Part shown: positions 11,491 through 41,912 of the stretch, piece by piece
Layout of the letters: the number at the start of each line of letters is the position of its first letter
Numbering within the stretch: the first letter of the stretch is position 1
Origin: Sinorhizobium fredii
Lineage (GTDB): Bacteria; Pseudomonadota; Alphaproteobacteria; Rhizobiales; Rhizobiaceae
Direction of reading: 5' to 3'
Assembly (NCBI RefSeq): GCF_002944405.1
Contig: NZ_CP024310.1
Span: forward strand, 186,001 to 250,000
Length of the DNA stretch: 64,000 nucleotides
Made by a program: the position numbers and the translations under genes
Notes under the pieces: generated by a model
Seen by the model: the letters and a program-made list of their open reading frames with translations, nothing else
Told to the model about the DNA's origin: nothing
Databases searched by the model: none

Positions 11491-11520
11491 ATTGACAGAT
11501 TATCATACAATCTGCCAAGA
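11491..11520 (+). promoter_or_regulatory. regulon promoter/operator site 1
   Basis: TTGACA at 11492-11497 is followed by the 17-base spacer GATTATCATACAATCTG (11498-11514), a divergent version of the island's common GATTGTCTGATAATCTG element; a weak -10 (CCAAGA) would follow. It sits 24 to 47 bases upstream of the MBL-fold gene at 11538 and would drive the three-gene unit of MBL hydrolase, alcohol dehydrogenase and MBL hydrolase. Confidence 0.6.
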
Positions 11521-11537
11521 AGTTGTAGAGGAACACG

Positions 11538-12446
11538 ATGGGAGGAAAATCGGTGTCTCTTAACAAACATCACCAAGCGAAGCTTCCCTACTTTTATCCA
11601 TTTGGATTCGGCGACGGAAAAATCACTATCCTGTCCGACGGGCCGCTAGCGCTAGGCGACCCAGGAACGAACTTTTTAGGCGTAGACGAAAGCACGGTCA
11701 GCGGAATGCTAGAACGCAATTTTCTGCCGACGAACAATGTCGTGCTTGAGCAGAACGTGCCGCTTGTTGAAATAAATGGGAGGACAATTTTGTTCGATAC
11801 CGGGATGGGTTCCTCCAAGGTTTTTGGCCCTACCACGGGTCGACTCTTAACCAGCCTTGAGGAAGCGGGCCGAGATCCGACGGAGATCGATGCCGTAGTT
11901 CTGTCGCACGCTCATATCGATCATATTGGCGGGCTCTGCGATGCGAGTGGCAATCTTAATTTCCCAAACGCCGAGATATTCATCAGTGAGCGAGACTTCA
12001 CAGACTGGACGGATGGGTCGTCGATCGACTCTTCTTTTCACTTTCAGATCGAAAATGCCCGGAGAAACCTGCTCCCGCACAAGGACCGCACCTTCTTTTT
12101 CAAGGATGGGGAGGAGTTCTTGCCCGGTATCCAGGCGATTTCCGCCCCCGGCCACACGCTCGGCCATCACTGCTTTATGATTCAATCCGGAAACGATCGC
12201 CTCTGCTTCCTCGGCGATCTTACACATCATCATATCCTATTGATGGAGCGGCCGATGATGGAATTCAAATATGATACGGACCCGAAGTTGTCAGCGATAT
12301 CTCGTACGCGCGTGCTGGACATGCTTGCGAAAGATCGAATTGCGGTGATGTCCTATCACTTCGCATGGCCGGGTGCTGGTCACGTGGTGCGGAATGGAGA
12401 CGGATTCCGCTACATCCCGGCTCCAATGCAGTTGCTTGCAAATTGA
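11538..12446 (+). CDS. metallo-beta-lactamase-fold hydrolase
   Basis: A 302-residue MBL-fold protein. The zinc motif SHAHIDHIGG lies at residues 123-132, an earlier strand has LFDTGMG, and later metal ligands are in SAPGHTLGHH and CFLGDLTHHH. The fold covers lactonases, thioesterases and other hydrolases that use one or two zinc ions. ATG at 11538 is used; GTG at 11553 is an attractive alternative because GGGAGGA stands eight bases before it, as at many starts here. It is the first gene of a unit with a zinc alcohol dehydrogenase and a second MBL protein, behind regulon site 1. Lactone or ester hydrolysis is the likely role; the substrate is unknown. Confidence 0.82.
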   Translation: MGGKSVSLNKHHQAKLPYFYPFGFGDGKITILSDGPLALGDPGTNFLGVDESTVSGMLERNFLPTNNVVLEQNVPLVEINGRTILFDTGMGSSKVFGPTTGRLLTSLEEAGRDPTEIDAVVLSHAHIDHIGGLCDASGNLNFPNAEIFISERDFTDWTDGSSIDSSFHFQIENARRNLLPHKDRTFFFKDGEEFLPGIQAISAPGHTLGHHCFMIQSGNDRLCFLGDLTHHHILLMERPMMEFKYDTDPKLSAISRTRVLDMLAKDRIAVMSYHFAWPGAGHVVRNGDGFRYIPAPMQLLAN

Positions 12447-12458
12447 TAGGAATCAGAC

Positions 12459-13586
12459 ATGCAAACGCGTTCGGCAATCCTCAGGGAGTCGGGTCTGCCG
12501 AAGCCCTACTCCGATTCGAAACCCCTCAAAATCGAGCTTGTGGAACTAACGCCGCCTGGCCCTATGGAGGTCCTAGTCAAGATCAAGGCTGCCGGGGTCT
12601 GCCACTCCGACCTATCCGCAATCAATGGCGACAGACCGCGTCCTCTTCCAGTCGCTCTCGGCCATGAGGCATCTGGCGTCGTCGAAGCAACCGGGCCGGG
12701 CGTGGAGAACGTCGATGTTGGTGACCACGTGGTCATGTCATTTTTACCGGTCTGCGGTCATTGTTCATTCTGCGTTGAAGGCCGGGCAAGCCTCTGCGAA
12801 CCGGGTTATGAGGCCAATGCTGCGGGGACGCTTCTGTCGGGCAGCAAGCATATCCGTCTGAAAGGATACGAAATTAACCATCACAGTGGAGTCTCTGCCT
12901 TTTCCGAGTATTCTGTTGTGTCGGCGAACTCGGTTGTCAAAGTGACCAAGGATATTGACTTGGCAGAAGCCGCGCTTTTCGGTTGCGCGGTTTTGACTGG
13001 CGTTGGAGCGGTGATGAACACCTGCGATGTCCGCCCAGGCCAAAGTGTCGCGGTAATCGGCCTCGGCGGTGTCGGCCTTTCGGCGATCCTCGGCGCCGTC
13101 GCGAGTGGAGCTGGCAATATCATTGCGATCGACCTCGTCCAAGCCAAGCTTGACCTTGCCAAGGAGCTGGGGGCGACCAAAACCTTTCTGGCGAGCTCGC
13201 CAGACATTGTGGCTCAGGTAAAAAGCGCGACGAGCGGTGGGGTAGATTACGCAATCGAGATGGCTGGATCCAAAAAGGCGTTCGAACTCGCATATGAGAT
13301 TACCCGGCGGGGCGGGATGACCGCAACCGCAGGACTGGCCAATGTCAATTCCCGTTTCGAGATCTCGCCTTTGCCGTTGGTCGGAGAAGAGAGAACGATC
13401 AAGGGGAGCTATATGGGCTCGTGCGTGCCATCGCGCGACATACCCCGGTATATCGAAATGTATCTCAAAGGGAAGCTGCCAGTTGTCAAATTGCTGTCGA
13501 GCACCGGTCCCCTTGACGAGATTAACGAAGCGTTTGACCGCCTCGATCGAGCCGAGATCAATCGACACCTCGTCGTTATGAGCTGA
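12459..13586 (+). CDS. zinc-dependent alcohol dehydrogenase (MDR superfamily)
   Basis: A 375-residue medium-chain dehydrogenase. Catalytic zinc ligands are in AAGVCHSDLS and GHEASGVVEA, the structural-zinc lobe is CGHCSFCVEGRASLC, and the NAD-binding fold has VIGLGGVGLSAIL. The length and extra loop place it near the class III/NDMA-like alcohol dehydrogenases. It starts 12 bases after the MBL stop and is followed 18 bases later by a second MBL gene, so the three are one operon. It would oxidise an alcohol intermediate, or reduce an aldehyde, in the putative pathway. It is one of four MDR dehydrogenases in the island. Confidence 0.88.
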   Translation: MQTRSAILRESGLPKPYSDSKPLKIELVELTPPGPMEVLVKIKAAGVCHSDLSAINGDRPRPLPVALGHEASGVVEATGPGVENVDVGDHVVMSFLPVCGHCSFCVEGRASLCEPGYEANAAGTLLSGSKHIRLKGYEINHHSGVSAFSEYSVVSANSVVKVTKDIDLAEAALFGCAVLTGVGAVMNTCDVRPGQSVAVIGLGGVGLSAILGAVASGAGNIIAIDLVQAKLDLAKELGATKTFLASSPDIVAQVKSATSGGVDYAIEMAGSKKAFELAYEITRRGGMTATAGLANVNSRFEISPLPLVGEERTIKGSYMGSCVPSRDIPRYIEMYLKGKLPVVKLLSSTGPLDEINEAFDRLDRAEINRHLVVMS

Positions 13587-13604
13587 TATTGGGGGAGACT
13601 TCTC

Positions 13605-14381
13605 TTGCACGAGTGGAAAGCACTGGCCATCCATTATGGCACCGCGCAACGGCCAGTGAGTGATCTGGCGCTTGAGATCAATGACCTTCACGAAGCTGCA
13701 TCACGCATCGATTATTTCGTGTGGCTAATCCGCCTTCCAAACCGCCTCATCCTCGTTGACACCGGTTTTAACGCCGAGGAGGGGGCAGCCAGAGGACGGA
13801 CTCTGTTGATCCATCCGGTCGCAGCTCTGAGCCGCCTTGGCATCGAACACAGCGATATTACAGATGTCGTCGTGACGCACCTGCATTACGATCATGCAGG
13901 AAACCTTCCAGCCTTCCCCAAAGCTACTTTTCATATCCAGGACCGGGAAATGGCTTATGGCACGGGGCGATGTATGTGCCATGAGCGAATGCGTCGGCCC
14001 TTTGCCGCAGAAGGGGTCGTCGACGCGGTTCGGCTCGTTTTCCAGTCAAGGGTTTGCTTCCATGACGGTGAAGCCGAAATCGCTCCGGGATGCAAGTTAC
14101 ACTTGGTGGGCGGGCACTCGAAGGGGCTGCAGGTTGTCACCCTGACGGCAGGCGACGCCTTGCTCGTCATCGCCTCGGACGCGCTTCATTTTCAAAGCTA
14201 CCTTACGAACGATAACGCGTTTCCTTTATTTGCCGACTACGCAGAGGTAATGGAAGCATATAACAAACTTCGCATTCTCGCGGGGCGGAATGGCCTCATC
14301 ATTCCAGGGCACGACCCTGTGGTACTCGACAGATTTTCGGCTTTGGCGACGGACCTCCCATTCGCTAGGGTCCTTCTCTAA
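13605..14381 (+). CDS. metallo-beta-lactamase-fold protein, AHL-lactonase-like
   Basis: A 258-residue MBL-fold hydrolase starting with TTG at 13605, seven bases after GGGGGAGA. The zinc motif THLHYDHAGN, the QDREMAY segment, a GRCMCH stretch, LVGGHSKGLQ and a final IPGHDP give the arrangement seen in the N-acyl-homoserine lactonase-like branch. Such enzymes open lactone rings. The protein is distinct from the MBL protein at 11538, so this operon encodes two hydrolases flanking an alcohol dehydrogenase. Genuine quorum quenching is possible, but the catabolic neighbourhood favours a pathway lactone as substrate. Confidence 0.8.
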   Translation: MHEWKALAIHYGTAQRPVSDLALEINDLHEAASRIDYFVWLIRLPNRLILVDTGFNAEEGAARGRTLLIHPVAALSRLGIEHSDITDVVVTHLHYDHAGNLPAFPKATFHIQDREMAYGTGRCMCHERMRRPFAAEGVVDAVRLVFQSRVCFHDGEAEIAPGCKLHLVGGHSKGLQVVTLTAGDALLVIASDALHFQSYLTNDNAFPLFADYAEVMEAYNKLRILAGRNGLIIPGHDPVVLDRFSALATDLPFARVLL

Positions 14382-14419
14382 CGGCCATCCGCCCAACCGT
14401 TCAGATTTTTCGCTGTTTC

Positions 14420-14442
14420 GCAGACAATCGGGTTGTCCTACG
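14420..14442 (+). promoter_or_regulatory. candidate autoregulatory operator of GntR-1 (site 2)
   Basis: CAGACAAT at 14421-14428, then CGGG, then TTGTCCTA at 14433-14440 form an imperfect inverted repeat (GACAA/TTGTC arms). CAGACAAT is the complement of the ATTGTCTG half of the regulon element. It lies about 50-70 bases upstream of the first GntR gene, a usual place for autoregulation. Confidence 0.45.
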
Positions 14443-14492: not shown

Positions 14493-15182
14493 ATGGGAAC
14501 GATGGACCTTCAGATTGCGCGTAAGAACGCCTCCTTGCGGATCCAGGTCGAGGATAAGCTCCGGCAGGCAATTTCAAGCGGCCGTTTCCAGCCCGGGCAG
14601 CGGCTGGTGGAGCGAGAGCTGTGCGAACTTATCGGGGTCGGCCGAACCTCAATTCGAGAAGCCTTGCGCCAGCTGGAGGCCGAAGGGCTTATAACCAGCT
14701 ATCCACATCGCGGCCCGGTCGTCAGCACCATCAGCTACGACGAGGCCGTACAGCTCTATAGAGTGCGGGCGCTACTCGAGAGCTTCGCCGGACAGGAGTT
14801 CGCCGAAAAAGGTTCGGACGAAGATATCGCTGCTCTGCTCAACACCGTCGAAGAATTTGCGGCTGCTGCTGATCGCGGTTCCTCAACGCGAATCATTGAA
14901 GCGAAGACCGCCTTCTACGATTGCTTGATGACCGGCAGTAAGAACGTGTTCGTCAAGCAAATGCTAACATCGCTGCACAACCGTGTCACACTGTTGCGGC
15001 TGACGTCGATGACCCAGCCCGGTCGTCTGCAACACAGCGTTTCCGAGATAAGAGGAATCGCTGCCGCTATTCAGCAGCGTGATGGCGAAAAGGCCGCTGC
15101 GCTTTGCAAGCAGCATATCGAAACCGCGGCTAAAGTGGCCTTGGACTACCTGAGCAAGAACCCAGTCGAAACCCCAGAGTAA
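14493..15182 (+). CDS. GntR-family regulator with FCD domain (GntR-1)
   Basis: A 229-residue regulator. The N-terminal winged helix has LRQAISSGRFQPGQRLVERE and the recognition-helix sequence GVGRTSIREALRQLEAEGLI (residues about 25-65); the rest is an all-helical FCD effector domain. ATG at 14493 is used, with ATG at 14502 an equally good start. It is strongly similar over its whole length to the second regulator at 25158-25847, for example in the GRFxPGQRLVERELCE, HRGPVVSTI and TSMTQPGRL segments. Proteins of this class are usually repressors released by a carboxylate or sugar-acid ligand. It is the best candidate, with its paralogue, to bind the repeated GATTGTCTG element upstream of genes across 11.5-41.9 kb. 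Confidence 0.9.
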   Translation: MGTMDLQIARKNASLRIQVEDKLRQAISSGRFQPGQRLVERELCELIGVGRTSIREALRQLEAEGLITSYPHRGPVVSTISYDEAVQLYRVRALLESFAGQEFAEKGSDEDIAALLNTVEEFAAAADRGSSTRIIEAKTAFYDCLMTGSKNVFVKQMLTSLHNRVTLLRLTSMTQPGRLQHSVSEIRGIAAAIQQRDGEKAAALCKQHIETAAKVALDYLSKNPVETPE

Positions 15183-15215: not shown

Positions 15216-15246
15216 ATTGACAGATTGTCTGCCAATCTGCTTACGT
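15216..15246 (+). promoter_or_regulatory. regulon promoter/operator site 3
   Basis: TTGACA at 15217-15222 is followed by GATTGTCTGCCAATCTG (15223-15239), then CTTACG where a -10 box would stand. The spacer contains the palindromic arms CAGATT and AATCTG. It lies about 70-95 bases upstream of the fused SCP2-hydrolase gene. Confidence 0.7.
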
Positions 15247-15312: not shown

Positions 15313-16542
15313 ATGGGCGCCCATGCCGAGCTAAATAAACGCATAGCCCTTGCGATTGATGATCCGGAATTGCCGCGACTGACTCCAGGTCTGACGACAC
15401 GAATCTCGTTTCATGTTGGATCAGGAGCGTCGACGCTTGCTGTAGAGAACGGACTGGTTGCGTTCGATAGGGCGGTCGGAGATGCTGAGGTTAATCTGAG
15501 GGCCGCAGAGGAAGCCTGGGAAAAGGTGATGCAGGTGCCGCCGCCCGCAACCTTTCACTCGTTCACTGCCTTTCAACTAGCCAACCCCGAATTCACACTA
15601 TCCGGTTCTCCTGTAGCAATCGCTCAAGCCCGCCCGGCTATAGAACGACTGTTCGAAATCGTTGTGGCGTCTCCGCCGATCGTTGTCGCAAAGGTCGATC
15701 GAAACATCGAACAGGTGACCGGACGATATAAACAGGTAAACATCGGTGGCGTGGAGCACGACATCTACTACGAGGAAGCTGGAGCAGGGACGCCGATCCT
15801 CTTCCTCCATACGGCTGGGGCAGACAGCCGCCAGTTTCTGCCACAACTTTCCGACACCGGGCTCGCTCGCTCGAACCGAATGATTGCAGTTGATCTACCA
15901 TTTCATGGACGCTCGATGCCACCGTTGAGTTGGGATGGCTCGCCCTATCAGCTCACGAAGGAACTCTATCTGTCCTGGTGCACAGCGATACTTGACCAAA
16001 TTGTCGGGGACAGAGCAGTTGTCATCGGAGGATCGATGGGGGCTGCGATGAGCATGGTACTAGCCGCGGAGCGGCCGGAACGGTTGCTGGGAGTGATCGC
16101 CATAGAACCACCTTTCAGGTCAAAGGGGCGTCGCAATCCTTTTCAGCACAACGTCAATGTTCATGGGTCGCTTCACAACTCAGCCTATGTCCGCGGAATT
16201 ATGAGTCCACTCAGCCCTCAAGCTGAGCGACGCCGTGCCAGTTGGATCTACTCGCAGGGTGCCCCAGGGGTTTATCCAGGCGATCTTTCCTTCTACAGCG
16301 ACGAATTTGATGGGGCCGTCGTCGGTCCGAAGATCGACGCCAAGCGAACGCCGACCGTTCTCCTTTCCGGAACATATGATTACTCTGCGACGCCTGCAGA
16401 CGGAGAAAAGCTCGCGGATCTTATTCCCGGGAGCCGTCATGTCGTCATGGACGGCCTCGGGCATTTCCCAATGTGCGAAAATCCCGATTATTTCCGTAGC
16501 TTTTTGGAAGACGCTATTCGGTTCGTCGAAGACAATGCCTAA
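15313..16542 (+). CDS. alpha/beta-hydrolase fused to an N-terminal SCP2-like domain
   Basis: A 409-residue two-domain protein starting ATG after AGGGAGGACCT. Residues 1-130 resemble a small SCP2-like domain (VENGLVAFDRAVGDAEVNLR, AEEAWEKVMQ, then a helical end). From about residue 140 an alpha/beta-hydrolase follows: oxyanion region LFLHTAGADSRQF, VDLPFHGRS, the nucleophile elbow GGSMGAAMS, an acid in GTYDYS and the catalytic His in GLGHFP. The hydrolase half aligns clearly with the protein at 27806-28702, which is encoded separately from an SCP2-like protein by an adjacent gene, so this is a fusion of the same module. It probably cleaves an ester, lactone or C-C bond of a hydrophobic intermediate. 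It stands alone behind site 3. Confidence 0.82.
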   Translation: MGAHAELNKRIALAIDDPELPRLTPGLTTRISFHVGSGASTLAVENGLVAFDRAVGDAEVNLRAAEEAWEKVMQVPPPATFHSFTAFQLANPEFTLSGSPVAIAQARPAIERLFEIVVASPPIVVAKVDRNIEQVTGRYKQVNIGGVEHDIYYEEAGAGTPILFLHTAGADSRQFLPQLSDTGLARSNRMIAVDLPFHGRSMPPLSWDGSPYQLTKELYLSWCTAILDQIVGDRAVVIGGSMGAAMSMVLAAERPERLLGVIAIEPPFRSKGRRNPFQHNVNVHGSLHNSAYVRGIMSPLSPQAERRRASWIYSQGAPGVYPGDLSFYSDEFDGAVVGPKIDAKRTPTVLLSGTYDYSATPADGEKLADLIPGSRHVVMDGLGHFPMCENPDYFRSFLEDAIRFVEDNA

Positions 16543-16575: not shown

Positions 16576-17343
16576 TCACTTCACCAAGTGGTTTCCGATC
16601 GAAGAACCACCGTCGACAGTCAAGATGCTTCCGGTCGCGAAAGTGGAGCGATCGGAGGCAAGAAAGAGCATTGCTTCAGCGATCTCTTCAGGTGTTCCCA
16701 TTCGATCCATAGCGGCGCGTGCGTTGAAATCGCTACGAAGTTTCACCGGGTCTTCCGATTCGGCGAAGATCTTTGTGAAATAAGGCGAGTCGATCGTACC
16801 AGGGGCGACCGCGTTAACACGGATCCCTTCTTTCGCGTGATCCAAGGCCATCGCCCGCGTTAGCGAAGATATCGCCCCTTTTGACGCGACGTAGGCCGTC
16901 CTGTCCGCGATCGCTGAGGTCGCTGTGTAGGAAGTCGTGTTAACGATGGAACCTCCACCATTCCGACGCATCACAGGAATAACATACTTGGCGCAAAGGA
17001 AGATACCTTTGACGTTGACTGACATGATTCGGTCCCAAGTTTCCTCAGTGATAGTCACGACATTACCGGTCGTTCCGAAGCCGGCATTGTTGACGAGCAC
17101 GTCGATCCGACTCCACCTCCCGACAGTCTTCTGAACCATGCTCTCCACGTCCTGAGCCGAAGAAACGTCGACGCGAATACCGAAGGCATTTGGACCGATC
17201 TCGCCCGCCACCCTATGCGCTGCGTTTTCGTTGACATCAGCGACGGCTACGTAGGCGCCGTGGTTCGCGAAGAGGAGCGCCGTTGCTCGGCCTATTCCGC
17301 TACCTCCCCCTGTGACGATGCAAACTTTTTGATTCAAATCCAT
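16576..17343 (-). CDS. short-chain dehydrogenase/reductase (SDR)
   Basis: A 255-residue classical SDR. The Rossmann motif TGGGSGIGRA is near residue 12, NNAG in VLVNNAGFGTTG, the catalytic Ser in VNTTSYTATS, YxxxK in TAYVASKGA and the C-terminal GSILTVDGGSS. Its ATG at 17343 faces a divergent promoter region with two copies of the regulon element (sites 4 and 5) shared with the flavin-reductase operon. Members oxidise secondary alcohols or reduce ketones with NAD(P)H. It converges on the fused hydrolase gene through the terminator at 16547-16570. Confidence 0.9.
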   Translation of the reverse strand: MDLNQKVCIVTGGGSGIGRATALLFANHGAYVAVADVNENAAHRVAGEIGPNAFGIRVDVSSAQDVESMVQKTVGRWSRIDVLVNNAGFGTTGNVVTITEETWDRIMSVNVKGIFLCAKYVIPVMRRNGGGSIVNTTSYTATSAIADRTAYVASKGAISSLTRAMALDHAKEGIRVNAVAPGTIDSPYFTKIFAESEDPVKLRSDFNARAAMDRMGTPEEIAEAMLFLASDRSTFATGSILTVDGGSSIGNHLVK

Positions 17344-17372: not shown

Positions 17373-17402
17373 AGAGAACAGTTTTGCAGACAATCTGTCA
17401 AT
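17373..17402 (-). promoter_or_regulatory. regulon promoter/operator site 4 (toward the SDR gene)
   Basis: On the minus strand, TTGACA (complement of 17396-17401) is followed by GATTGTCTGCAAAACTG and a weak -10 (TTCTCT). The left arm of the consensus palindrome is intact and the right arm is AAACTG in place of AATCTG. It is back to back with site 5, giving a divergent control region of about 70 bases. Confidence 0.65.
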
Positions 17403-17415: not shown

Positions 17416-17444
17416 TTGACAGATTGTCTGCTAATCTGTTTATT
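17416..17444 (+). promoter_or_regulatory. regulon promoter/operator site 5 (toward the flavin-reductase operon)
   Basis: TTGACA at 17416-17421, the 17-base spacer GATTGTCTGCTAATCTG (17422-17438) and TTTATT at 17439-17444 make a well-spaced promoter whose spacer is the operator. It lies about 35 bases before the flavin-reductase ATG. Confidence 0.75.
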
Positions 17445-17477: not shown

Positions 17478-17987
17478 ATGGCCGATACCAGCACCGACGC
17501 GCAGTCGGCATTCAAGGCGGCTATGCGCCGGTTCACATCAACCATTTGCTTGATCACGACCGAGCTTGGCGGCGTTCGTCACGGTATGGCTGCGACCGCA
17601 GTTCAGTCGGTTACGGCCGAGCCACCGACTGTTCTCGTCTGCATCAACCAGTCTGCTTCGATAAGCCAGCCTTTGAAGGCTTCTGGAAAATTCGCCGTCA
17701 ACATGTTGCACCTTTCACATGCGGGCCTTGTGCCGCTGTTCAGTGGAAAGCTGAAGGGTGAAGAGCGCTTCCACCACGGCGAGTGGCTGTCTCTCGACGG
17801 TATGCCGGTCCTGTCCGATGCGCAGGCCGCGTTTGTCTGTCAGCTAAAGGATGTTGTTCACGTTGGAACCCATGATGTTGTGCTCGGAGAAGTCCTCGAA
17901 GCACGGTTCATCGAGTCGATCGCACCGCTTCTCTACGAGAACGGCCAACTCGTCAGGTCGTCGTCCATCAGCGGACCGGCGGCATAA
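17478..17987 (+). CDS. flavin reductase, DIM6/NTAB (RutF/HpaC-like) family
   Basis: A 169-residue FMN-binding split-barrel protein beginning MADTSTDAQSAFKAAMRRFTST. Typical family segments are GMAATAVQSVTAEPPTVLVC, FAVNMLHLSH and a terminal HDVVLGEVLEARF. These enzymes reduce FMN or FAD with NAD(P)H and pass free reduced flavin to a partner monooxygenase. The partner is probably the LLM-family enzyme at 18527-19648, two genes downstream on the same strand. It is the first gene of the site-5 operon. Confidence 0.88.
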   Translation: MADTSTDAQSAFKAAMRRFTSTICLITTELGGVRHGMAATAVQSVTAEPPTVLVCINQSASISQPLKASGKFAVNMLHLSHAGLVPLFSGKLKGEERFHHGEWLSLDGMPVLSDAQAAFVCQLKDVVHVGTHDVVLGEVLEARFIESIAPLLYENGQLVRSSSISGPAA

Positions 17988-18052
17988 CAGGTCGCCTTGA
18001 CGACCAATCAAACCACTCATGGAGAGCCCAACGGGCGACAAGGAGATAAAGG

Positions 18053-18466
18053 GTGAGCAACACAGCAACCGCAAGAGTGAATGGACGTGAAATCAGTGAA
18101 CGCTTTGAGCGTGGGCTAAAGACCAGGCGCGAAGTTCTGGGAGGCGCCTATGTCGATGCGTCGGTCAGCAAGGCAACCGACTTCAATTGGCCGATGCAGG
18201 CCCTTGTTACGGAATACTGCTGGGACGAAATTTGGAACCGGCCCGGGCTGGAGCGCAAGCAGCGCAGCATTCTTAATCTAGGAATGATCTCGGCACTCAA
18301 TCGTCCCCATGAGCTGAAGCTGCATGTTCGCGGGGCGATCAACAACGGTCTTACCAAAGAAGAGATCCGGGAGATTTTCCTCCAGGTTTCTATCTACTGC
18401 GGTGTTCCTGCGGCAATCGACAGCTTCCGCGTGGCGGCGGAAGTCTTCGAAGAAATGGGCATCTGA
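18053..18466 (+). CDS. carboxymuconolactone decarboxylase-like protein (PcaC family), copy 1
   Basis: A 137-residue helical protein starting with GTG behind AAGGAG. Family segments are GLKTRREVLGGAYVDAS, the TEYCWDEIWNRPGLERKQRS block, HVRGAINNGLTKEEIREIFL and a C-terminal YCGVPAAIDSFRVA, which follow the PcaC pattern (W-IW-RPGL then LHVR-A-NGL). PcaC removes CO2 from gamma-carboxymuconolactone in the protocatechuate pathway. No protocatechuate dioxygenase is visible here, so the substrate probably differs. The product is closely similar to copy 2 at 26921-27349. It sits between the flavin reductase and the monooxygenase. Confidence 0.85.
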   Translation: MSNTATARVNGREISERFERGLKTRREVLGGAYVDASVSKATDFNWPMQALVTEYCWDEIWNRPGLERKQRSILNLGMISALNRPHELKLHVRGAINNGLTKEEIREIFLQVSIYCGVPAAIDSFRVAAEVFEEMGI

Positions 18467-18526
18467 TTATCCAAGTCTTTTATGCGCGGCTGAGCACCAT
18501 ATGGTGCCAGCCGGAGGAGGAACCAA

Positions 18527-19648: not shown

Positions 19649-19775
19649 ACACGTCTGCGGGATGGCGACTGCCGTCCCGCCACGAGCTCCGCCGGAGTTC
19701 CGGCAAGACTTCCGCGGCTGGCGACCAAAAGGGTCGGCGGTTTGAGCGGACCACAAAGGGGGAGGAGGCCCTATA

Positions 19776-31540: not shown

Positions 31541-32511
31541 TGTCCGGCAACGCAATTCGACAAGTCACGCAGGATCGATCGCTCTTTGTTCCTGCGGCAC
31601 TTTTCCTAGTCCTGCTGGTCGCTGTGGCGATCCGCGGGCCTAGCTTGTTCACCACCAACGGTCTGGCGGGCGCAATCCTGGTCGCTTCGCCCCTAATTCT
31701 CACTGCGCTTGCGATTACACCAATCGTGATGGCGGGCAGGGGAGCAGTGGACCTCTCTGTCGGTCCGTTGATGGGCTTTATCAACGTCACCGTGATAACT
31801 TGGCTCGTCGGCAATGGGATCACCAATCCCGTCGTTGTAATTTGCTGGGCAGTCGTTCTCGGTGCGGCGTTCCAATTGCTGCAGGCACTAATCATCATCT
31901 ACGTGCGCGTGGCCCCGATCATTGTGACACTATCAGGCTTCCTCGTCCTGTCCGGCGTCAATTTGATGGTAATGTCTCGTCCTGGTGGCGTTGCGCCAGA
32001 CTGGATGATGTCGTGGGGTGCAGGCACGAGCGTCATGTCGCCTGTGCTGGCGCTCCTGATCGTAGCCTACGCGCTCTGGGTGGTCATAAGACGCACAATG
32101 TTCTATCGGAACCTGTGCATGACAGGTGCCGATGAACGCATGGCCTACACGAGCGGTGTTCAGGTCGACCTGGTGCGCATCATTGCCCACGTTATCGGCG
32201 GCGTCTTCGCAGGTTTGGCAGCTCTGAGCTACACGGCTCTGATTTCCTCCGGCGACCCGACACAAGGCAGTACTTACACGCTACAGGCGGTCACCGCTCT
32301 CGTCCTTGGCGGAGCGAGCCTTTCCGGCGGTCGGGGCGGGGCGCTCGGTTCAACGCTTGGCGCGATCAATATGTTCATGATCTCGTATGTCCTCTCCACA
32401 TTCAACTTTGGCACGGTTTCCGGGTTCGTCACTCAGATGGCCTTTGGTCTGATCCTCGTCGGATCGCTCCTCGTGAATGTCTTCGTCATCAGCCGCCGCT
32501 CCGCCGCTTGA
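31540..32511 (+). CDS. sugar ABC transporter permease (RbsC type), first of pair
   Basis: A 323-residue hydrophobic protein with roughly eight to ten membrane segments. The family motif MAGRGAVDLSVGPLMG is near residue 65, and VTALVLGGASLSGGRGGALGS near residue 250 is the permease loop that meets the ATPase. Start overlaps the ATPase stop. It forms a heterodimer with the product of the next gene, which begins after a 12-base gap. Confidence 0.9.
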   Translation: MSGNAIRQVTQDRSLFVPAALFLVLLVAVAIRGPSLFTTNGLAGAILVASPLILTALAITPIVMAGRGAVDLSVGPLMGFINVTVITWLVGNGITNPVVVICWAVVLGAAFQLLQALIIIYVRVAPIIVTLSGFLVLSGVNLMVMSRPGGVAPDWMMSWGAGTSVMSPVLALLIVAYALWVVIRRTMFYRNLCMTGADERMAYTSGVQVDLVRIIAHVIGGVFAGLAALSYTALISSGDPTQGSTYTLQAVTALVLGGASLSGGRGGALGSTLGAINMFMISYVLSTFNFGTVSGFVTQMAFGLILVGSLLVNVFVISRRSAA

Positions 32512-32523
32512 GGGAATAAGGAA

Positions 32524-33543: not shown

Positions 33544-33574
33544 AATCTCACATAGGCATTCGAAAGGAACACTG

Positions 33575-35588: not shown

Positions 35589-36464
35589 TTACACGTACGA
35601 TTGCTGCCCCTCGGCAAGGGCCACCTCGATCAGGTAGTGTCCGTTCTTGGTCGTGCGGCTCGGATACATCTTCGTCATCGCGGGCTCATGTGGTATGAGA
35701 ACTCGACGGATGTCGAAGTCGGCGCACTTCATGATCTCGTGCGTCGCAAAAATGAGCTTCGTTTGACTGCCAAAGGCAAGGCCGACCGGAAGATACATCG
35801 GGTCACCGGCGATCCCACCGTGCAGATTGTCATGGCGATAGAGTAGGTCGCCCGGGTACACGAAGACGTCGTCGCTGTCAGATTTCCCGTCGTTGCGGAT
35901 GACCACATATTGCGATCCTGCGGTATGAGTGTCCCGCGCGATCCTGACGTCGATGCCGGGTAAAATGTTGTCGACATTGCCGTCAATGCCGCGCATTCGT
36001 CCCTCGCGGGCGAGTTGGACAGCGTAGAGCATGTCGCCCGTATCAGTGGCGGTGAGCAGCCATCGGAAGCGGCGGTCGAGCGCCATAATCGAAACCCAAG
36101 CCGCGAGTTCTTCCTGCTGGATGTGGAAGGTCGCGTTGGGGAAAAGTTCCAAACCGCCCATGTGGTCGAAATGCGCATGCGTCAGGATAACGTGGTCGAT
36201 CTGCTCGGGAGTACAGCCGACCTCAGCGAGCACTTCCTTTGGCGAGAACCAGTTCTGAACGTTGAAGCGCTCCAGGAACTCGCGGCCATGGGATGCATAG
36301 TTCACGCCACAGTCCACCAGGATTGTCTTCCCGTGACCCTTCAGAAGGGTGTAGCAGTAAGGAAGCTTTTCATTCCCCATGTTGTGTCGACCGTAGACGA
36401 GAGAGCTGGTAGGTGCGTCCGGTACCCACGCGAACTCAAGCATCCATATTGAGTAGTCAGGCAA
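35589..36464 (-). CDS. metallo-beta-lactamase-fold hydrolase (third in island)
   Basis: About 291 residues. TTG at 36464 is preferred as start because GGAGGAG ends three bases before it; the frame also opens at TTG 36488, where it would overlap the upstream stop. Motifs are TILVDCGVN, the zinc motif LTHAHFDHMGG, a later RDTHTAGSQYVV with a metal His, and FVYPGDLLYRHDN. It resembles the AHL-lactonase-like hydrolase branch but is longer. It is the last gene of the site-10 operon (alcohol dehydrogenase, GMC oxidoreductase, unknown protein, MBL), where a lactone made by oxidation of a cyclic alcohol could be hydrolysed. Confidence 0.82.
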   Translation of the reverse strand: MPDYSIWMLEFAWVPDAPTSSLVYGRHNMGNEKLPYCYTLLKGHGKTILVDCGVNYASHGREFLERFNVQNWFSPKEVLAEVGCTPEQIDHVILTHAHFDHMGGLELFPNATFHIQQEELAAWVSIMALDRRFRWLLTATDTGDMLYAVQLAREGRMRGIDGNVDNILPGIDVRIARDTHTAGSQYVVIRNDGKSDSDDVFVYPGDLLYRHDNLHGGIAGDPMYLPVGLAFGSQTKLIFATHEIMKCADFDIRRVLIPHEPAMTKMYPSRTTKNGHYLIEVALAEGQQSYV

Positions 36465-36484
36465 GGTCTCCTCCCAATCCTGAT

Positions 36485-36967
36485 TCAACTGATAACGGTT
36501 TTATGAAGCGCGCAGCACGAATGCTGTAAGTCCACCAGCACAAACCCCGGTAGGCATTTCGACGCCTTTCTTAATTCCGACCACGCTGCCTGTAGAGGCG
36601 CGAGCGGATCACGGGCGGATGCCAAGCCTGCCAGCGTGCGGTCTATATCCTCCATCGCGACCCGCAGGAGTTTCCCGGCGTTGGCGAGATGCCCGTGAAA
36701 ATGCTGGCTGCGAGGTGTGGACCGTAGTGCGCGGAACTCCTCATTTCCCGCCTTTATGAGCCCGGCTGCGGCGGCATGGACCTCCGCGTCAAGCACATGG
36801 CGGGACCTCGCGATGGCGAGAAGGACCAGCAGCCCGGCCAGTCGGTTGGCCGCACCATGGAAATTTTCGAAGCACACCTGGGCTGAAATAGTATAGGCCG
36901 ATGTTGCGTCGTCCAGCACCTCGACGACGCGCATCGAGTTCGTCTGGGATACGGCCACGCTCCTCAT
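36485..36967 (-). CDS. hypothetical protein coupled to a GMC oxidoreductase
   Basis: A 160-residue protein that I do not recognise. It is largely alpha-helical in composition (CFENFHGAANRLAGLLVLLA, AEVHAAAAGLIKAGNEEFRA), with a few Cys and His (SQHFHGHLANAG, LQHSCCALHKT). Its start overlaps the GMC stop as ATGA and its stop lies at the start region of the MBL gene, so its place in the operon is tight and conserved-looking. It could be an accessory subunit of the GMC dehydrogenase or a small enzyme. Confidence 0.65.
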   Translation of the reverse strand: MRSVAVSQTNSMRVVEVLDDATSAYTISAQVCFENFHGAANRLAGLLVLLAIARSRHVLDAEVHAAAAGLIKAGNEEFRALRSTPRSQHFHGHLANAGKLLRVAMEDIDRTLAGLASARDPLAPLQAAWSELRKASKCLPGFVLVDLQHSCCALHKTVIS

Positions 36968-38628
36968 GCGGCATGTTCCTCCCGGGTTTCGAGCGGCGCG
37001 GCGCGCCGCCCCAAGATAAGATCAGCCGCCTTCTCCGCGATCATCAGCGTCGTGGCGTTGGTGTTGGCAGACGGCATCAAAGGCATGATGGAAGCATCTG
37101 CGATCCGAAGGCCGGACAGCCCATGTACCCGCAGCTGTGAGTCAACCACAGTCCCGGGGGTGGAGCGCGGCCCCATCCGGGTGGTGCCGATCATGTGGTA
37201 GACAGTCGTGCCCTTCTGGCGCGCAAAGTCGAGGAGCTCGTCGTCGCTCTCGAGATTTGGCGTCGGAGACGTCTCAGCATCCATATATCTGCTGAGAGCG
37301 TTGGTCCGGAACAACTGTCGCGCTAGCCGCATGCCGCCAAGCAGTGCCATTTGATCTGTCTTGTGCGTGAGATAGTTGGGCTGGATCGCCGGAGGCTCGA
37401 AGACGTTCGACGACTTGATATGGGCGAACCCGAGGCTCTCAGGGCGCTCCTGCCAGACGCCGAGCGTCAGGCCAGGATGCGTGTCCAGCAACCCGACTAC
37501 GCCTTCGCGGAAGCTTGCCGGCGCGCACGCGAACTCAAGATCTGGCCTGGGCAACGAAGGATCGGACTTCCAGAAGATGTGAACAAGTGACGGGCTGACC
37601 GCAAGTATGCTCGGCTTCCCGAAAGCCCAGCGAGCGATCTGGCCAAGCAGGGCAGGGCCGTAGGCTAAATCGTTGATGGTCGTTGAGCCTTTTACGCGGG
37701 CAACCATGCGAACGGCGTAGTGATCGCGGAGGTTGTTGCCCACGCCCCAGAGCTCATGGAAAACCTTGACCCCGGCGCGCCGCAGAACGTCCGCTGGTCC
37801 GATCCCCGACAGTTGGAGAAGCTTGGGCGTATTGAGCGCGCCTGCGGTGAGGATTACCTCTCGCGTCGCGCGGAGTTCGCGTCGAGCTCCGCCTGGTCCT
37901 CCCGTGATATATGCGACGCCAACAGCCTTTGTGCCCTCAAAGAGTATGGAGGTGGCTTGGCTATTCGTGCGGACGTCCACGTTGCCACGCTTCATTGCCC
38001 TGCGAAGGAAGGCTCTGGCGGAGCTGTGCCTGAATCCTTTGTAGATCGTCCGCTGAAAATATCCTGCGCCATCCTGGCTAGCGCCGTTATAGTCCGGATT
38101 CCGGGGAATTCCCAACTCTATTGCCGCATCGATCAAGGCCTCGCTGACGGGATGGTGCCAGTCCAAATCGGTGATCGGCAACTCACCGTCGCGTCCGCGA
38201 TAGCGTTCATCGGCATTACCGATACGACGCTCCGATCGTTTGAAGTAGTGCAGGATTTCCTTATAGCTCCATCCAGGATTTCCTTCAGCGGCCCAGTTGT
38301 CGTAGTCTACGGCCTGCCCCCGGACGTAATTAAGACCGTTGATCGAGCTTGATCCGCCAAGTACTCGTCCCTGTGGCAGGGAAAAACTCCTGTTGTTCGT
38401 GCCCGGATTCGGTTCGGACATGAAGTTCCAGGTGAGTTTTTTGCTGTAGATGTTCTTGATATACCCGGCGGGGACATGAATCATTGGATTGTTGTCCTTT
38501 GGACCCGCTTCCAGAAGACAGACTTTGAAACCTGCGTCGCTCAATCGATTCGTAACGACACACCCGGAAGTTCCGCCTCCGACTACGACGTAATCGAACG
38601 TCTCTCCTTCAGCCTGCGCGTTTGCCAT
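36964..38628 (-). CDS. GMC-family FAD-dependent oxidoreductase (choline dehydrogenase-like)
   Basis: A 554-residue flavoprotein starting MANAQAEGETFDYVVVGGGT with GGAGGAG upstream. The FAD Rossmann motif VVGGGTSGCVV and LEAGP are N-terminal; the GMC signature GRVLGGSSSINGLNYVRG follows near residue 80; the C-terminus has the active-site VYHMIGTTRMG (His) and NTNATTLMIAEKAADLI (Asn). GMC enzymes oxidise primary or secondary alcohols and sugars. It follows an alcohol dehydrogenase gene by 70 bases in the site-10 operon, so two alternative alcohol oxidations are encoded together. Confidence 0.9.
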   Translation of the reverse strand: MANAQAEGETFDYVVVGGGTSGCVVTNRLSDAGFKVCLLEAGPKDNNPMIHVPAGYIKNIYSKKLTWNFMSEPNPGTNNRSFSLPQGRVLGGSSSINGLNYVRGQAVDYDNWAAEGNPGWSYKEILHYFKRSERRIGNADERYRGRDGELPITDLDWHHPVSEALIDAAIELGIPRNPDYNGASQDGAGYFQRTIYKGFRHSSARAFLRRAMKRGNVDVRTNSQATSILFEGTKAVGVAYITGGPGGARRELRATREVILTAGALNTPKLLQLSGIGPADVLRRAGVKVFHELWGVGNNLRDHYAVRMVARVKGSTTINDLAYGPALLGQIARWAFGKPSILAVSPSLVHIFWKSDPSLPRPDLEFACAPASFREGVVGLLDTHPGLTLGVWQERPESLGFAHIKSSNVFEPPAIQPNYLTHKTDQMALLGGMRLARQLFRTNALSRYMDAETSPTPNLESDDELLDFARQKGTTVYHMIGTTRMGPRSTPGTVVDSQLRVHGLSGLRIADASIMPLMPSANTNATTLMIAEKAADLILGRRAAPLETREEHAA

Positions 38629-38701
38629 CTCTCCTCCGAATGCAAATGCTGTCCCATGGTGCCGCAAGCGTCGTCGCGGCCCCTGTATGTCTCGGACGTG
38701 A

Positions 38702-39817
38702 CTATGAAGCCCTATGGTTCATGCGCAGGATTGGCTTAATTATCTTCCCGCTTTCTGAGTCGGCCATCGCCTCGTTGATGTCGTCGAGATCGTAAAACTG
38801 GACGAGCTTGTCGAACGGGAATCGACCTTGCTGCCAGTACTCAATCAGGCGGGGAACGAATTCAGACGGAATGCTTTGTCCTTCGACGATCCCGACGAGG
38901 GTGCGGCCAAACAGGAAGTTGCCGATGTCGATGGTGCCTTCGGTGCCGAGCGCGGAAGAGCCGACGAGTCCGCAAGTTCCCGGCGTGCCGAGGCAATCGA
39001 CGGCCTGCCGGAAAACCTTAGGCGAGCTCGTGCATTCCAGGCTGAAGTCCACGCCGGCCGGAGCTAGTTCCTTGATGGCCTTGACACTGTCTTCCTTGCG
39101 GGCGTTGATTGTATGTGTCGCGCCGAGTTCAAGGGCAAGCTCGAGACGCTCATCGTTGAGATCGACGACGATAACGGTCGTGCACCCTGCGATCCTGGAG
39201 GCCATGACTGCCGCCATCCCGACCGCTCCTGCACCGAAGATCGCGATTGAGGACCCGGGCTTCGGCTTGAGGCAGTTTAAGACCGCGCCCGCGCCGGTCT
39301 GGAGTCCGCAACCGAGCGGGCCGATAAGCTCGAGGGGGACGTCCTTGGGAACCTTGACCGCGTTACGCTCGCTGGCGATGGCGTATGTTGCGAACGAGGA
39401 CTGTTCGAAAAAGCAACCGCTGATCTGCTTGCCATGGGAATCGTGGATGGGGCAGGTGCCGTCGGGACGAGTGCCGCGGAAGTTTCTTCCGAAGAAATCC
39501 TCGCAATAATAGGGCGTGCCGGTAAGACACTTTTCGCACTTGCCGCAGTAGGCGTAGCTAAGGGCTACGTGGTCACCGGGAACGAGTCCCGTGACTTCGC
39601 TCCCGATCGCCTCGACGACGCCGGAGCCTTCATGTCCGAGGACGACCGGTTGCGGTACGTCGTATCCCTGATCTCGGACGACCATGTCCGTATGGCAGAC
39701 GCCGGAGGCGACGATTCGTACTAGGATTTCGTCCGCCCGCGGTTCATCAATCCCAATGCACTCCAAGACGAGAGCCTTCGCCTTCTCTCTCGAAATTGCA
39801 GCATACGCTTGCTTCAT
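38702..39817 (-). CDS. zinc-dependent alcohol dehydrogenase, aryl/benzyl-alcohol type
   Basis: A 371-residue MDR enzyme starting MKQAYAAISREKAKALVLEC. Catalytic-zinc segments are SGVCHTDMVVRD and GHEGSGVVEAIG; the structural-zinc lobe is CGKCEKCLTGTPYYC; the nucleotide fold has IFGAGAVGMAAVMASRIAG. Its GCGLQTGAGAVLNCLKP segment is typical of aryl-alcohol dehydrogenases. It resembles the enzyme at 46714-47811. It is the first gene of the minus-strand operon driven by site 10. Confidence 0.9.
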   Translation of the reverse strand: MKQAYAAISREKAKALVLECIGIDEPRADEILVRIVASGVCHTDMVVRDQGYDVPQPVVLGHEGSGVVEAIGSEVTGLVPGDHVALSYAYCGKCEKCLTGTPYYCEDFFGRNFRGTRPDGTCPIHDSHGKQISGCFFEQSSFATYAIASERNAVKVPKDVPLELIGPLGCGLQTGAGAVLNCLKPKPGSSIAIFGAGAVGMAAVMASRIAGCTTVIVVDLNDERLELALELGATHTINARKEDSVKAIKELAPAGVDFSLECTSSPKVFRQAVDCLGTPGTCGLVGSSALGTEGTIDIGNFLFGRTLVGIVEGQSIPSEFVPRLIEYWQQGRFPFDKLVQFYDLDDINEAMADSESGKIIKPILRMNHRAS

Positions 39818-39858: not shown

Positions 39859-39887
39859 AAACTACGCATCATCAGACAATCAGTCAA
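39859..39887 (-). promoter_or_regulatory. regulon promoter/operator site 10
   Basis: On the minus strand TTGACT (complement of 39882-39887), GATTGTCTGATGATGCG and TAGTTT. The left arm is exact; the right arm has drifted. It stands about 45-70 bases upstream of the alcohol dehydrogenase ATG at 39817. The remaining gap to the divergent gene at 40111 holds only site 11. Confidence 0.65.
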
Positions 39888-40030: not shown

Positions 40031-40059
40031 TTGACAGATTGACAGACGACCACTACCCA
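40031..40059 (+). promoter_or_regulatory. regulon-like promoter site 11 (half operator)
   Basis: TTGACAGATT (40031-40040) is followed by GACAGACGACC, so the -35 and the first arm match but the second arm is replaced by a repeat of GACAGA. It lies about 50-80 bases upstream of the dehydrogenase ATG at 40111. Weaker than other sites. Confidence 0.45.
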
Positions 40060-40110: not shown

Positions 40111-41220
40111 ATGTTCGAAGCGCCGAAAGCGTGGTCTAGTCGCTCAATGAAAGCCGCGCAGATTGAGGGGGTAAGGGGACGAATCGCGGTTGCGGAGGTA
40201 AGGGTTCCGGAACTGGAGCCAGATGACGCTCTCGTTAGGGTCGTCGCGTCGGGTATTTGCCGCAGTGACTGGCATTTGTGGAACGGCGACTGGGAATGGG
40301 TCGGCATGAAACTTCAGCCCGGAGCCGTTCTCGGGCATGAGATCGGCGGCGTTGTCGAAGCCGTCGGATCAAACGTCAAGTCCGTCCGCCCAGGGCAACG
40401 CGTCACGGTGCCGTTCAATCTGGCGTGCGGGCACTGCCACCATTGCTCTCGCGGGGAACAGAACATCTGCGACAACGCGGCTGTCCCGCATCTCATCCCA
40501 GGATCAGGCGGTTGGGCGCAGTACATGCGCGCGCCCAACGCGAACCTGAACTGCGTACCGCTTCCGGAGGGGGTGGACGAACTTACTGCTGCGGCGCTTG
40601 GTTGCCGCTACATGACTGCGTGGCGTGCGATCCAGAGCCGAGGCGCCCTGCGCGGTGGAGAGAGTGTCGCCGTTTTTGGGTGTGGTGGCGTCGGGCAGGC
40701 CGCGATCGAAATCGCAGCATCGCTCGGCGGACGTGTCATCGCTGTCGATGTCGATGATGCAAAGCTCGCGAAGGCAAAGGAAATCGGCGCGCATGCCGTC
40801 GTCAATGCTAAGGGTCTTTCTTCTGAGCAGGCCGGCGGAGCAGTTAGGAGAAACACCGAACGAGACGCCGGGGTCGACCTTGCGGTCGATGCGCTCGGTA
40901 GCGTCGCGACGGTACACGGCGCTCTCCATTCGCTACGCAAAGGCGGCCGCCTGTCCCAGGTTGGTCTAACATCCCAGGAGGAGAAAGGCGTCGTGGCGGT
41001 TCCGATGGATATGATCGTGCTAAAAGAGCTTGAAATTCGCGGCAGTCTCGGCAACCCCCAGAGCGAGTACGACGACCTCCTCAGCCTCGTCGCATCGAGG
41101 AAACTCAACCCGACTTCACTGGTCAGTCGAACGGTTTCGCTCGGTGACGTCGAATCGGTTCTACATGACATGGATAGCTTTAAAACGAGCGGCTACGTGG
41201 TCATCACGGACTTCGATTGA
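40111..41220 (+). CDS. zinc-binding alcohol dehydrogenase (MDR superfamily)
   Basis: A 369-residue protein starting MFEAPKAWSSRSMKAAQIEG after AGGAGGCC; the frame from 40039 begins inside the operator region and is rejected. Motifs are SGICRSDWHLWNG, GHEIGGVVEAVG, the structural-zinc lobe CGHCHHCSRGEQNIC and FGCGGVGQAAIEIA. The CRSDWHxWxGDWxW pattern marks the branch of threonine/sorbitol-like and alcohol dehydrogenases often found in catabolic clusters. It is divergent from the aryl-alcohol dehydrogenase operon. Downstream lies a gpmA relic, so it is probably monocistronic. Confidence 0.88.
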   Translation: MFEAPKAWSSRSMKAAQIEGVRGRIAVAEVRVPELEPDDALVRVVASGICRSDWHLWNGDWEWVGMKLQPGAVLGHEIGGVVEAVGSNVKSVRPGQRVTVPFNLACGHCHHCSRGEQNICDNAAVPHLIPGSGGWAQYMRAPNANLNCVPLPEGVDELTAAALGCRYMTAWRAIQSRGALRGGESVAVFGCGGVGQAAIEIAASLGGRVIAVDVDDAKLAKAKEIGAHAVVNAKGLSSEQAGGAVRRNTERDAGVDLAVDALGSVATVHGALHSLRKGGRLSQVGLTSQEEKGVVAVPMDMIVLKELEIRGSLGNPQSEYDDLLSLVASRKLNPTSLVSRTVSLGDVESVLHDMDSFKTSGYVVITDFD

Positions 41221-41288
41221 GGCTGACGGCGAGGTGGTCCGGCCGCGGCATCATTCGTCTTCGGTCAGAACGAACTTGTCGGTAAGAG

Positions 41289-41747
41289 TCAGGACGTTTC
41301 CAGTGCGAACGAACTGCCCTCATCGAGTTCCCGTGAGCTACAAGTATTACCGTTTGCCCCCTCAGCAGCAACGGAATGACCTCGCAAAGTAAGAACGGTA
41401 CAAAGCTCGTGCGCTGGTGTCGCGGATGCCACCGGGTGGCCGGGTGCTAAAGGAGCGCCGCAAACCCAACGTTTTCGCGCCTCATCCTTGTTCATCCCTG
41501 TCAGCTCGCCGTAATCTCGCTCGTTCAATGCCTCGGTCTGAGACAGCTCCAAGCGGTCGCCTTGCGTTTCGCGTAGGATTACAGAACGCCGCGTCGAAAA
41601 CGAACCGATTGCCGCGAGTCTTTCGCTAGCCTGACGACTTTCGTAGCGCCCTTTCAATGAAAGTGGCGCGTCCTTCCAACCCGTGAATTCGTTCCGCTCA
41701 TTCCCCTCGCTTTGCCTATGGCGGACGATGACGAAGGTTGATGACAA
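41289..41747 (-). pseudogene. gpmA: phosphoglycerate mutase (gpmA-like) relic
   Basis: The minus-strand frame begins MSSTFVIVRHRQSEGNERNE with FTGWKDAPLSLKG, close to the RHGQSEWN...FTGW start of GpmA but with the catalytic RHG changed to RHR. ALNERDYGELTGMNKDEARK then matches the family, after a shortened middle. A further piece (PPGGIRDTSARAL) is in another frame, so at least one frameshift and deletions are present, and the C-terminal half is missing. It is a dead remnant between two active transcription units. Confidence 0.75.
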
Positions 41748-41883
41748 TTAAGTGCCTTCGCGTTCCGCAAGTTACATGATTGTCTTATTGTCTCACTTGT
41801 TGGCAGATCATTGAAAAGTAGAAGACATATCAATCTGATAGGAACTTTCATGGCCCACATTCATTAGTTTCTGACCGAGCTTA

Positions 41884-41912
41884 TTGACAGATTGTCTGAA
41901 GATTTATAAGGA
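41884..41912 (+). promoter_or_regulatory. regulon promoter/operator site 12
   Basis: TTGACA (41884-41889), GATTGTCTGAAGATTTA (41890-41906), TAAGGA. The left half is exact while the right half has decayed. It lies about 105-130 bases upstream of the Tat-exported binding-protein gene and would drive the second importer operon (42015 to at least 47811). Partial half-sites (GATTGTCTTATTGTCTC) occur further upstream at 41768-41784. Confidence 0.65.

Follow-up and report, generated by a model that had tools for sequence, protein, structure and literature searches.

A shared operator-promoter element in a probable catabolic gene island around teuBAC1C2 of Sinorhizobium fredii

In a stretch of 64,000 nucleotides from Sinorhizobium fredii (assembly GCF_002944405.1, contig NZ_CP024310.1, positions 186,001 to 250,000 of the forward strand; hereafter the window, in whose coordinates positions are given), we found that a 19-bp operator with dyad symmetry, CAGATTGTCTGNNAATCTG, heads 10 of 13 transcription units lying between 11.5 kb and 48-51 kb, and that weak versions of it precede two more. 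The units were delineated from open reading frames (ORFs) and protein domains. The 12 units with a strong or weak site hold 35 genes by our count, among them the transporter genes teuBAC1C2 and two genes for FCD-type GntR regulators, GntR-1 and GntR-2. We consider it probable, with good confidence, that some 35 genes of this island make up a horizontally spread catabolic regulon, built around teuBAC1C2, that serves the use of one or more compounds in bean (Phaseolus) root exudate and is under GntR repression.

Operator sites and their conservation

The following sites were identified, with scores from a weight matrix and the number of orthologues in relatives that keep the site.
11496..11514, TTGACA on the plus-strand side: operator before the MBL1-ADH-MBL2 unit; score 29.5; kept in 8 of 8 orthologues
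14413..14431, minus strand: operator before GntR-1; score 21.4; weaker in most relatives
15221..15239, plus strand: operator-promoter before the alpha/beta hydrolase ABH1; score 28.3; 9 of 9 orthologues
17379..17397, minus strand: operator-promoter of the SDR oxidoreductase; score 27.6
17420..17438, plus strand: operator-promoter of the flavin reductase operon; score 30.8; 8 of 8 orthologues
23008..23026, plus strand: operator before FMN reductase-RibBA; score 23.4; no such site upstream of the orthologue in either of two relatives
25069..25087, minus strand: weak operator-like site before GntR-2; score 10.1; stronger, at the same place, in loci L085, L086 and L088
25861..25879, plus strand: operator-promoter of the 3-hydroxyisobutyrate-dehydrogenase-type gene (HIBADH); score 29.8; 7 of 7 orthologues
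26863..26881, plus strand: operator-promoter of the CMD2 operon; score 31.7; 6 of 7 orthologues
39865..39883, minus strand: operator-promoter (TTGACT) of the leftward operon; score 22.9; three of five orthologues reach 19
40035..40051: degenerate site, forward TTGACAGATTGACAG, before the second alcohol dehydrogenase gene, ADH2
41888..41906, plus strand: operator-promoter before teuB; score 24.9; of five orthologues, three reach 19 and all five reach 15

Ten units thus have a site scoring above 21, and the sites of GntR-2 and ADH2 are weak; a putatively coding minus-strand ORF at 41289-41747 has no clear site. An earlier note on this DNA, made from the letters alone, had proposed such a motif ahead of nearly every transcription unit and mostly behind TTGACA, and every site that it listed is present within a few bases. 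Some of its details change. Both sites that it described as arm-only, before the two GntR genes, are there, but that of GntR-1 is strong; the supposed half site at 40031 is in fact the degenerate forward site at 40035. The note's 25 to 30 genes fall short of our count, and its set, which ended at 41.9 kb, goes on, as the operon behind site 41888 extends to 48.1 kb or beyond.

The number of sites is far above what the composition of the window would yield. With up to three mismatches, GATTGTCTGNNAATCTG has 16 matches at 11 places in the 64 kb (expected 1.68, sd 1.29), and none of 100 shuffles reached 16. The ten strong sites score between 21.4 and 31.7 with a matrix that was built on these same ten, and six sequences simulated from a first-order Markov background of the same composition contained a mean of 0.17 sites of 18 or more per 64 kb. 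We also scanned the whole genome (6,557,702 bases in four contigs, the window being on contig C4). All four perfect copies of CAGATTNNCNNNNAATCTG fall within the window, as do 10 of the 29 copies of GATTGTCTG, between 14.4 and 41.9 kb (reversed control, 1). Allowing at most one mismatch, 8 of 14 genome places with GATTGTCTGNNAATC and 7 of 8 with the composite TTGACAGATTGTCTG (reversed control, 0) lie in the island. These whole-genome counts rule out chance repeats as the source of the sites, and they reveal concentration in the island where equal frequency elsewhere would have spoken against the earlier proposal.

The position of the operator relative to the promoter is also regular. TTGACA abuts it exactly, on one strand, in seven of the ten window sites, and TTGACT does so in one more. 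Counted from the end of the -35 box, the operator then fills exactly the 17-bp spacer of a TTGACA promoter. In the 35 promoter classes from the window and its relatives that were left after selection for TTGAC[AT]GATTGT[CA]TG and thinning at 85% identity, A+T content is highest at spacer 17 (0.74, against 0.50 at spacer 22), and similarity to TATAAT has a modest peak at the same spacer (mean 2.71 of 6 positions, compared with at most 2.29 at the other spacers from 13 to 22). Because the operator occupies the space between -35 and -10, a repressor bound there would block polymerase, and the geometry thus suggests steric repression.

Orthologous promoters strengthen the shared control that the earlier note supposed: the same sites are present there on plasmids of bean-nodulating Rhizobium and Sinorhizobium. 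For eight operon-first and nine operon-internal genes, we recorded the highest-scoring site in the 300 bases upstream of each orthologue at 15 loci. A site of 19 or more precedes 52 of 57 operon-first orthologues (MBL1 8/8, ABH1 9/9, SDR 8/8, flavin reductase 8/8, HIBADH 7/7, CMD2 6/7, ADH 3/5, TeuB 3/5) and none of 49 operon-internal ones, the highest of which scores 11.8; these observations are not independent, since a single divergent region serves both SDR and flavin reductase and a number of the 15 loci are almost copies of one another. The two totals omit five hits of CMD2 that score 1.3-5.1 and that we took for CMD1 paralogues, all hits of CMD1, three of which (24.3-29.0) are operon-heading CMD2 orthologues, and the row of the ATPase at 29984, three of whose hits (30.8-31.7) belong to a third transporter with its own site. 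Also omitted are both SBP rows (cross-hits, all at most 8.6), the rows of the two GntR genes, FMN reductase (7.3 for each of its two hits), ADH2 (a single hit of 23.7, which is the site of the divergent ADH) and one MBL2 hit at a contig edge. Finally, the 23-bp composite is on average 0.90 identical between window and relatives, compared with 0.61 for its flanks, and is ahead in 32 of 32 promoter pairs, which were picked at sites, so that the identity figure is inflated.

Related clusters were sought with two short conserved peptides in a set holding one genome for each species, which gave 27 loci: 24 in Rhizobium, one in a Rhizobiaceae metagenome-assembled genome (MAG), one in Agaricicola and one in a Burkholderiales MAG. 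Two or more sites with a score of at least 19 are present in each of the 24 Rhizobium loci. Within the genus of the window, the regulator occurs in 2 of 33 genomes, its own included, so the island is accessory. Reduced clusters retain GntR together with the site: in Shinella, a GntR gene and a divergent operon have a single strong site between them, and in A. rubi, which has a 53% identical GntR, the composite precedes a divergent flavin reductase operon. In R. tropici CIAT 899 (L084:45786) we observed a site flanked by genes for a chemoreceptor and a GH3 glycosidase, for which no counterpart was seen in the window, and a like site stands at the corresponding place in R. giardinii (L070:4281). 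The two CIAT 899 genes are possible further members of the regulon. Speculatively, the GH3-adjacent site of the R. tropici type may mean that the compound arrives as a glycoside.

The teu genes and the association with bean

The operon behind site 41888 encodes, in the gene order teuB-A-C1-C2, a binding protein, an ATPase and a pair of permeases, and the genes are 90.1, 83.9, 85.3 and 84.9% identical to teuB, teuA, teuC1 and teuC2 of S. fredii GR64 plasmid p64a. The naming rests on the GR64 annotation, including the question of which transporter was first called teu. Rosenblueth et al. in 1998 reportedly described teuBAC1C2 as bean-exudate uptake genes of Rhizobium tropici. Passages of PMC3557214 place teu genes on pRtrCIAT899a of strain CIAT 899 and pPRF81b of PRF 81, and state that exudate of bean and of Macroptilium induces the transporter and that nodulation competitiveness depends on it. 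Similarly, a passage of PMC4125696 has teu on sv. phaseoli symbiotic plasmids and reports that it was not found in R. etli sv. mimosae Mim1, and section 15 of PMC8581550 states that ABC transporter genes earlier found to be bean-exudate-induced in R. tropici rise in R. phaseoli Ch24-10 with bean exudate. Clusters that correspond to that of the window are present on pRtrCIAT899a and p42d, and the GntR-1 part is present on pPRF81b (L079).

Among plasmid records, fifty relatives of the second binding protein, SBP2, are at least 89% identical to it; Phaseolus is listed in 43 of these records and no plant in the other seven, counts that are suggestive, given that bean strains are over-sampled. At 60-89% identity we found relatives in two Agrobacterium (one from lavender) and a Shinella. 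In the genome of the window, nifH and nodC are on contig C3; its teu operon is therefore on a contig other than that of the symbiosis genes. The NodC protein is 97.8% identical to that of S. americanum CCGM7 (bean nodules), 97.6% to that of S. americanum from Vachellia and 95.6% to that of S. fredii GR64 (bean), and bean-compatible symbiosis of this strain is plausible on these identities.

The island had been called undescribed, which does not apply to one of its transporters, annotated in a relative as the described teu. Searches of one open-licence library, on teu, the regulators of p42d, motif databases and the enzyme set, found no description of a teu regulator, an operator or the remaining regulon; they did not extend to RhizoBindingSites, a database of motifs of R. 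etli, in which a predicted one may be present. Literature matches to the operator letters include no rhizobial regulon among the titles and abstract starts of the matches listed, and neither the GntR passages of PMC11387232 nor a term search of PMC7674921 names genes of the island.

Candidate regulators and rival explanations

Both GntR proteins have a winged helix-turn-helix (PF00392) and an FCD effector domain (PF07729), each above the gathering score. The earlier note had called them nearly identical, which overstates the likeness: they share 71% of 219 aa and 51 of 63 residues in the winged helix. Because the latter figure is high and the recognition segments are nearly the same, with conservative changes only, GntR-1 and GntR-2 probably read the same operator. 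In both FCD domains of the window (14493-15182 and 25164-25847) we noticed K and Y at the positions of two consensus residues, D and H, which bind metal in FCD domains. Ligand binding by the two domains may thus be non-canonical.

The distribution of the operator follows that of these proteins. Among 297 genomes of the family, with at most nine candidates scored per genome, an orthologue (E at most 1e-60) is present in five. The exact composite occurs in all five (6, 7, 7, 7 and 1 copies); of the 292 genomes without such an orthologue, one has it. Exact GATTGTCTGNNAATC occurs in 33 of the 297, the five GntR genomes included, with most copies (four) in the genome of the window. By co-occurrence, the two FCD-type GntR proteins are the best candidate regulators. 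In our reading, one or both of them would bind the dyad in the 17-bp spacer and shut the operons, so that GntR would occupy the promoter spacers when there is no plant. In bean exudate, the compound or an early metabolite would bind the FCD domain and release the repressor. Transporters, a two-component flavin monooxygenase along with a dedicated flavin supply, decarboxylase-like and lactonase-like enzymes, hydrolases and dehydrogenases would then be expressed jointly.

The most serious alternative, although an unlikely one, is that there are two partly separate regulons with near-identical operators, GntR-1 controlling module 1 (11.5-24.9 kb) and GntR-2 controlling module 2 (25-41.2 kb) together with the second complete ABC transporter, teu, beyond it (25-48 kb in all). 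Each regulator does lie within its own module, and L086 and L088 have GntR-2 with module 2 and no GntR-1 module in the stretch examined. Furthermore, the base after GATTGTCTG is C in four of five such module 1 sites in the window and A in four of four full module 2 sites. However, this preference fails in relatives, the ABH1 site of CIAT 899 having A and its teuB site C, and the conservative changes in the recognition segments also argue against divided specificity.

It is considerably less probable that another regulator, such as an AraC or LysR protein, reads the operator, or that GntR acts as an activator. AraC or LysR genes are near several of the clusters, and dyad-like letters appear in the gel-shift oligonucleotide table of a Pseudomonas LysR study (the part of PMC6422896 that lists them), in a flank common to all probes seen. 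Yet no other regulator family is present in the examined stretches of all of L084, L085, L086, L087, L088 and L090, the composite tracks GntR, and a site between -35 and -10 favours repression over activation. Extremely improbable is that the sites are copies of promoter DNA spread by duplication or transfer without shared regulation: the island does hold duplicated genes (GntR 71%, CMD 74% and SBP 67% identical) and has a G+C content of 56-58% against 61% in its flanks, but the sites precede unrelated genes and are kept while their flanks diverge, and on the operon-internal control (none of 49) we rejected this origin.

Several observations weigh against a single bean-related regulon under GntR control. 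The FMN reductase site is missing in both relatives that could be compared, and ADH and TeuB reach 19 in three of five orthologues each. The sites of the GntR genes themselves are uneven, that of GntR-2 being weak in the window and that of GntR-1 scoring 10.6-13.0 in most Rhizobium relatives, and both are variable in relatives. The -10 boxes are weak, with 2.71 of 6 TATAAT matches at spacer 17 set against 2.29 at 13 and 15. As to co-occurrence, three of the five genomes belong to one genus and so are not independent, at most nine candidates were scored in each genome, and the composite with one mismatch matches in 51 of the 297 genomes, mostly once each. Loose patterns are common throughout the genome of the window: GATTGTCTGNNAATC at two mismatches has 121 matches (15 for the reversed control), and the longer CAGATTNNCNNNNAATCTG at three has 1000 (311 for the control), so that weak sites elsewhere in the genome are indistinguishable from background, neither shown nor excluded. 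Distant relatives of the GntR proteins have no clear copy of the site, the best scoring 10.4 in Sodalis, 15.5 in Azospirillum, 17.2 in Agaricicola and 15.2 in the Burkholderiales MAG; the best in Caballeronia scores 18.0 and is about 6 kb away from its GntR gene. Lastly, two Agrobacterium plasmids and a Shinella plasmid without a bean link in their records carry module 2, the two Agrobacterium plasmids hold teu-like genes as well, and bean strains are over-sampled.

Gene content and comparison with known systems

The units of the island are as follows.
11538..14381, plus strand: MBL-fold hydrolase, Zn alcohol dehydrogenase, MBL-fold hydrolase (PF00753; PF00107/PF08240; PF00753)
14493..15182, plus strand: GntR-1, FCD-type GntR regulator (PF00392 + PF07729)
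15313..16542, plus strand: alpha/beta hydrolase ABH1 (PF00561)
16576..17343, minus strand: SDR oxidoreductase (PF13561)
17478..22651, plus strand: flavin reductase, CMD1, luciferase-like monooxygenase (18527), periplasmic binding protein, aminotransferase, GFA-family protein (PF01613, PF02627, PF00296, PF13407, PF00155, PF04828)
23054..24870, plus strand: NADPH-dependent FMN reductase (PF03358); RibBA, DHBP synthase/GTP cyclohydrolase II (PF00926 + PF00925)
25164..25847, plus strand: GntR-2, FCD-type GntR regulator (PF00392 + PF07729; start picked by comparison with relatives, ORF opens at 25134)
25939..26826, plus strand: HIBADH (PF03446 + PF14833)
26921..35062, plus strand: CMD2, 127-aa protein, alpha/beta hydrolase, SBP2 (from about 28728), ATPase (29984), two permeases, SSADH-type aldehyde dehydrogenase (33509)
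35589..39817, minus strand: leftward operon of Zn alcohol dehydrogenase, GMC oxidoreductase, 160-aa protein, MBL-fold hydrolase (third)
40111..41220, plus strand: Zn alcohol dehydrogenase ADH2 (PF08240 + PF00107; start by the length of the L086 relative, ORF opens at 40039)
41982..46646, plus strand: teuB, teuA, teuC1, teuC2, ribose-type ABC importer (by identity to the S. fredii GR64 p64a genes)
46714..48133, plus strand: Zn alcohol dehydrogenase (PF00107) and a small ORF that equals the putative quinol monooxygenase of relatives in place and size
48147..51417, plus strand: FAD oxidoreductase (PF07992) and methyl-accepting chemotaxis protein (PF00015)

The last two genes are possibly on the same transcript as the teu operon. 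The CMD2 operon encodes a complete ribose-type ABC transporter of its own, and its alpha/beta hydrolase and ABH1 form a further paralogous pair, at 37% identity. The 127-aa (27426-27809) and 160-aa (36485-36967) proteins have no significant Pfam match; both are encoded inside regulon operons, are conserved and are also present in relatives. Site 23008 matches a place where CIAT 899 has a site followed by genes for an ABC ATPase and two permeases, and in the window this site (intergenic region 22651-23054) may be the remnant of a lost transporter. Outside the island, a Mutator/IS256-type transposase gene (51982-53181) lies in a stretch 99.9% identical to an element of a GR64 symbiotic plasmid, a sign of recent traffic with bean strains. 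A second catabolic block at 56257-64000 (otnK-like kinase, dehydrogenases, GntR, ABC genes) has about 77% DNA identity to several of the same bean plasmids.

In kind, the system is a familiar one, a local catabolic regulon of an FCD-type GntR protein; what appears to be new is this regulon, its operator and the placing of the teu genes inside it. Like other regulons of FCD (FadR-subfamily) GntR repressors, the island combines a winged helix with an FCD domain and a dyad operator that overlaps promoters. A site before the regulator gene, another feature of such regulons, scores 21.4 for GntR-1 and 10.1 for GntR-2 and is variable in relatives. The island differs in its size (12 units rather than the usual one or two operons), in its two paralogous regulators and in a 19-bp operator that fills a 17-bp promoter spacer. 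FCD operators usually resemble TNGTNNNACNA, which TTGTCTGATAA of the island fits except for one base. In Sodalis praecaptivus (L099:1970-6660), the gene of a 48% identical GntR relative lies beside two carboxymuconolactone-decarboxylase-family genes and genes for NAD(P)-dependent oxidoreductases, a neighbourhood that would be part of a wider guild of this GntR subfamily.

The luciferase-like enzyme and the flavin reductase, encoded in one operon, resemble RutA/RutF, the two-component pyrimidine oxygenase. Their best NCBIfam matches are RutA (194.6 bits) and RutF (123.3 bits), and RutA is the best solved relative. Both fall far short of the curated equivalog cut-offs (498.3 and 254.75 bits), and we rejected the assignment; the substrate of the oxygenase probably differs from that of RutA/RutF. 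The MBL proteins were likewise rejected as acyl-homoserine lactone (AHL) quorum-quenching lactonases (AidB, AttM, AiiA), the best reaching 126.9 of 360 bits (AidB), and the third MBL protein reached 41.3 of 375 bits. Solved relatives of TeuB, SBP2, the monooxygenase, GntR-1 and CMD1 point to no substrate.

In passages of the papers cited above, teu is an exudate-induced transporter tied to nodulation competitiveness, without a named substrate, regulator or pathway. Whereas those passages describe the transporter alone, here it is one unit of a regulon of about 35 listed genes, for which our analysis gives a specific operator and two candidate regulators and sketches the chemistry for the first time. 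Tentatively, and by analogy with opine catabolism, the island might even be a complete, plasmid-mobile programme to taste, import and eat an exudate compound characteristic of Phaseolus. In such a programme, the GntR pair would sense the compound, and one operator would govern uptake and chemotaxis as well as flavin supply and an uncharacterised flavin-oxygenase pathway, joined in some lineages by a glycosidase; the whole would have spread across Rhizobium and Sinorhizobium as these became symbionts of bean. The promoters could find use as exudate-responsive elements in rhizosphere biosensors, and the regulon opens a testable question: for which bean compound do symbionts compete?

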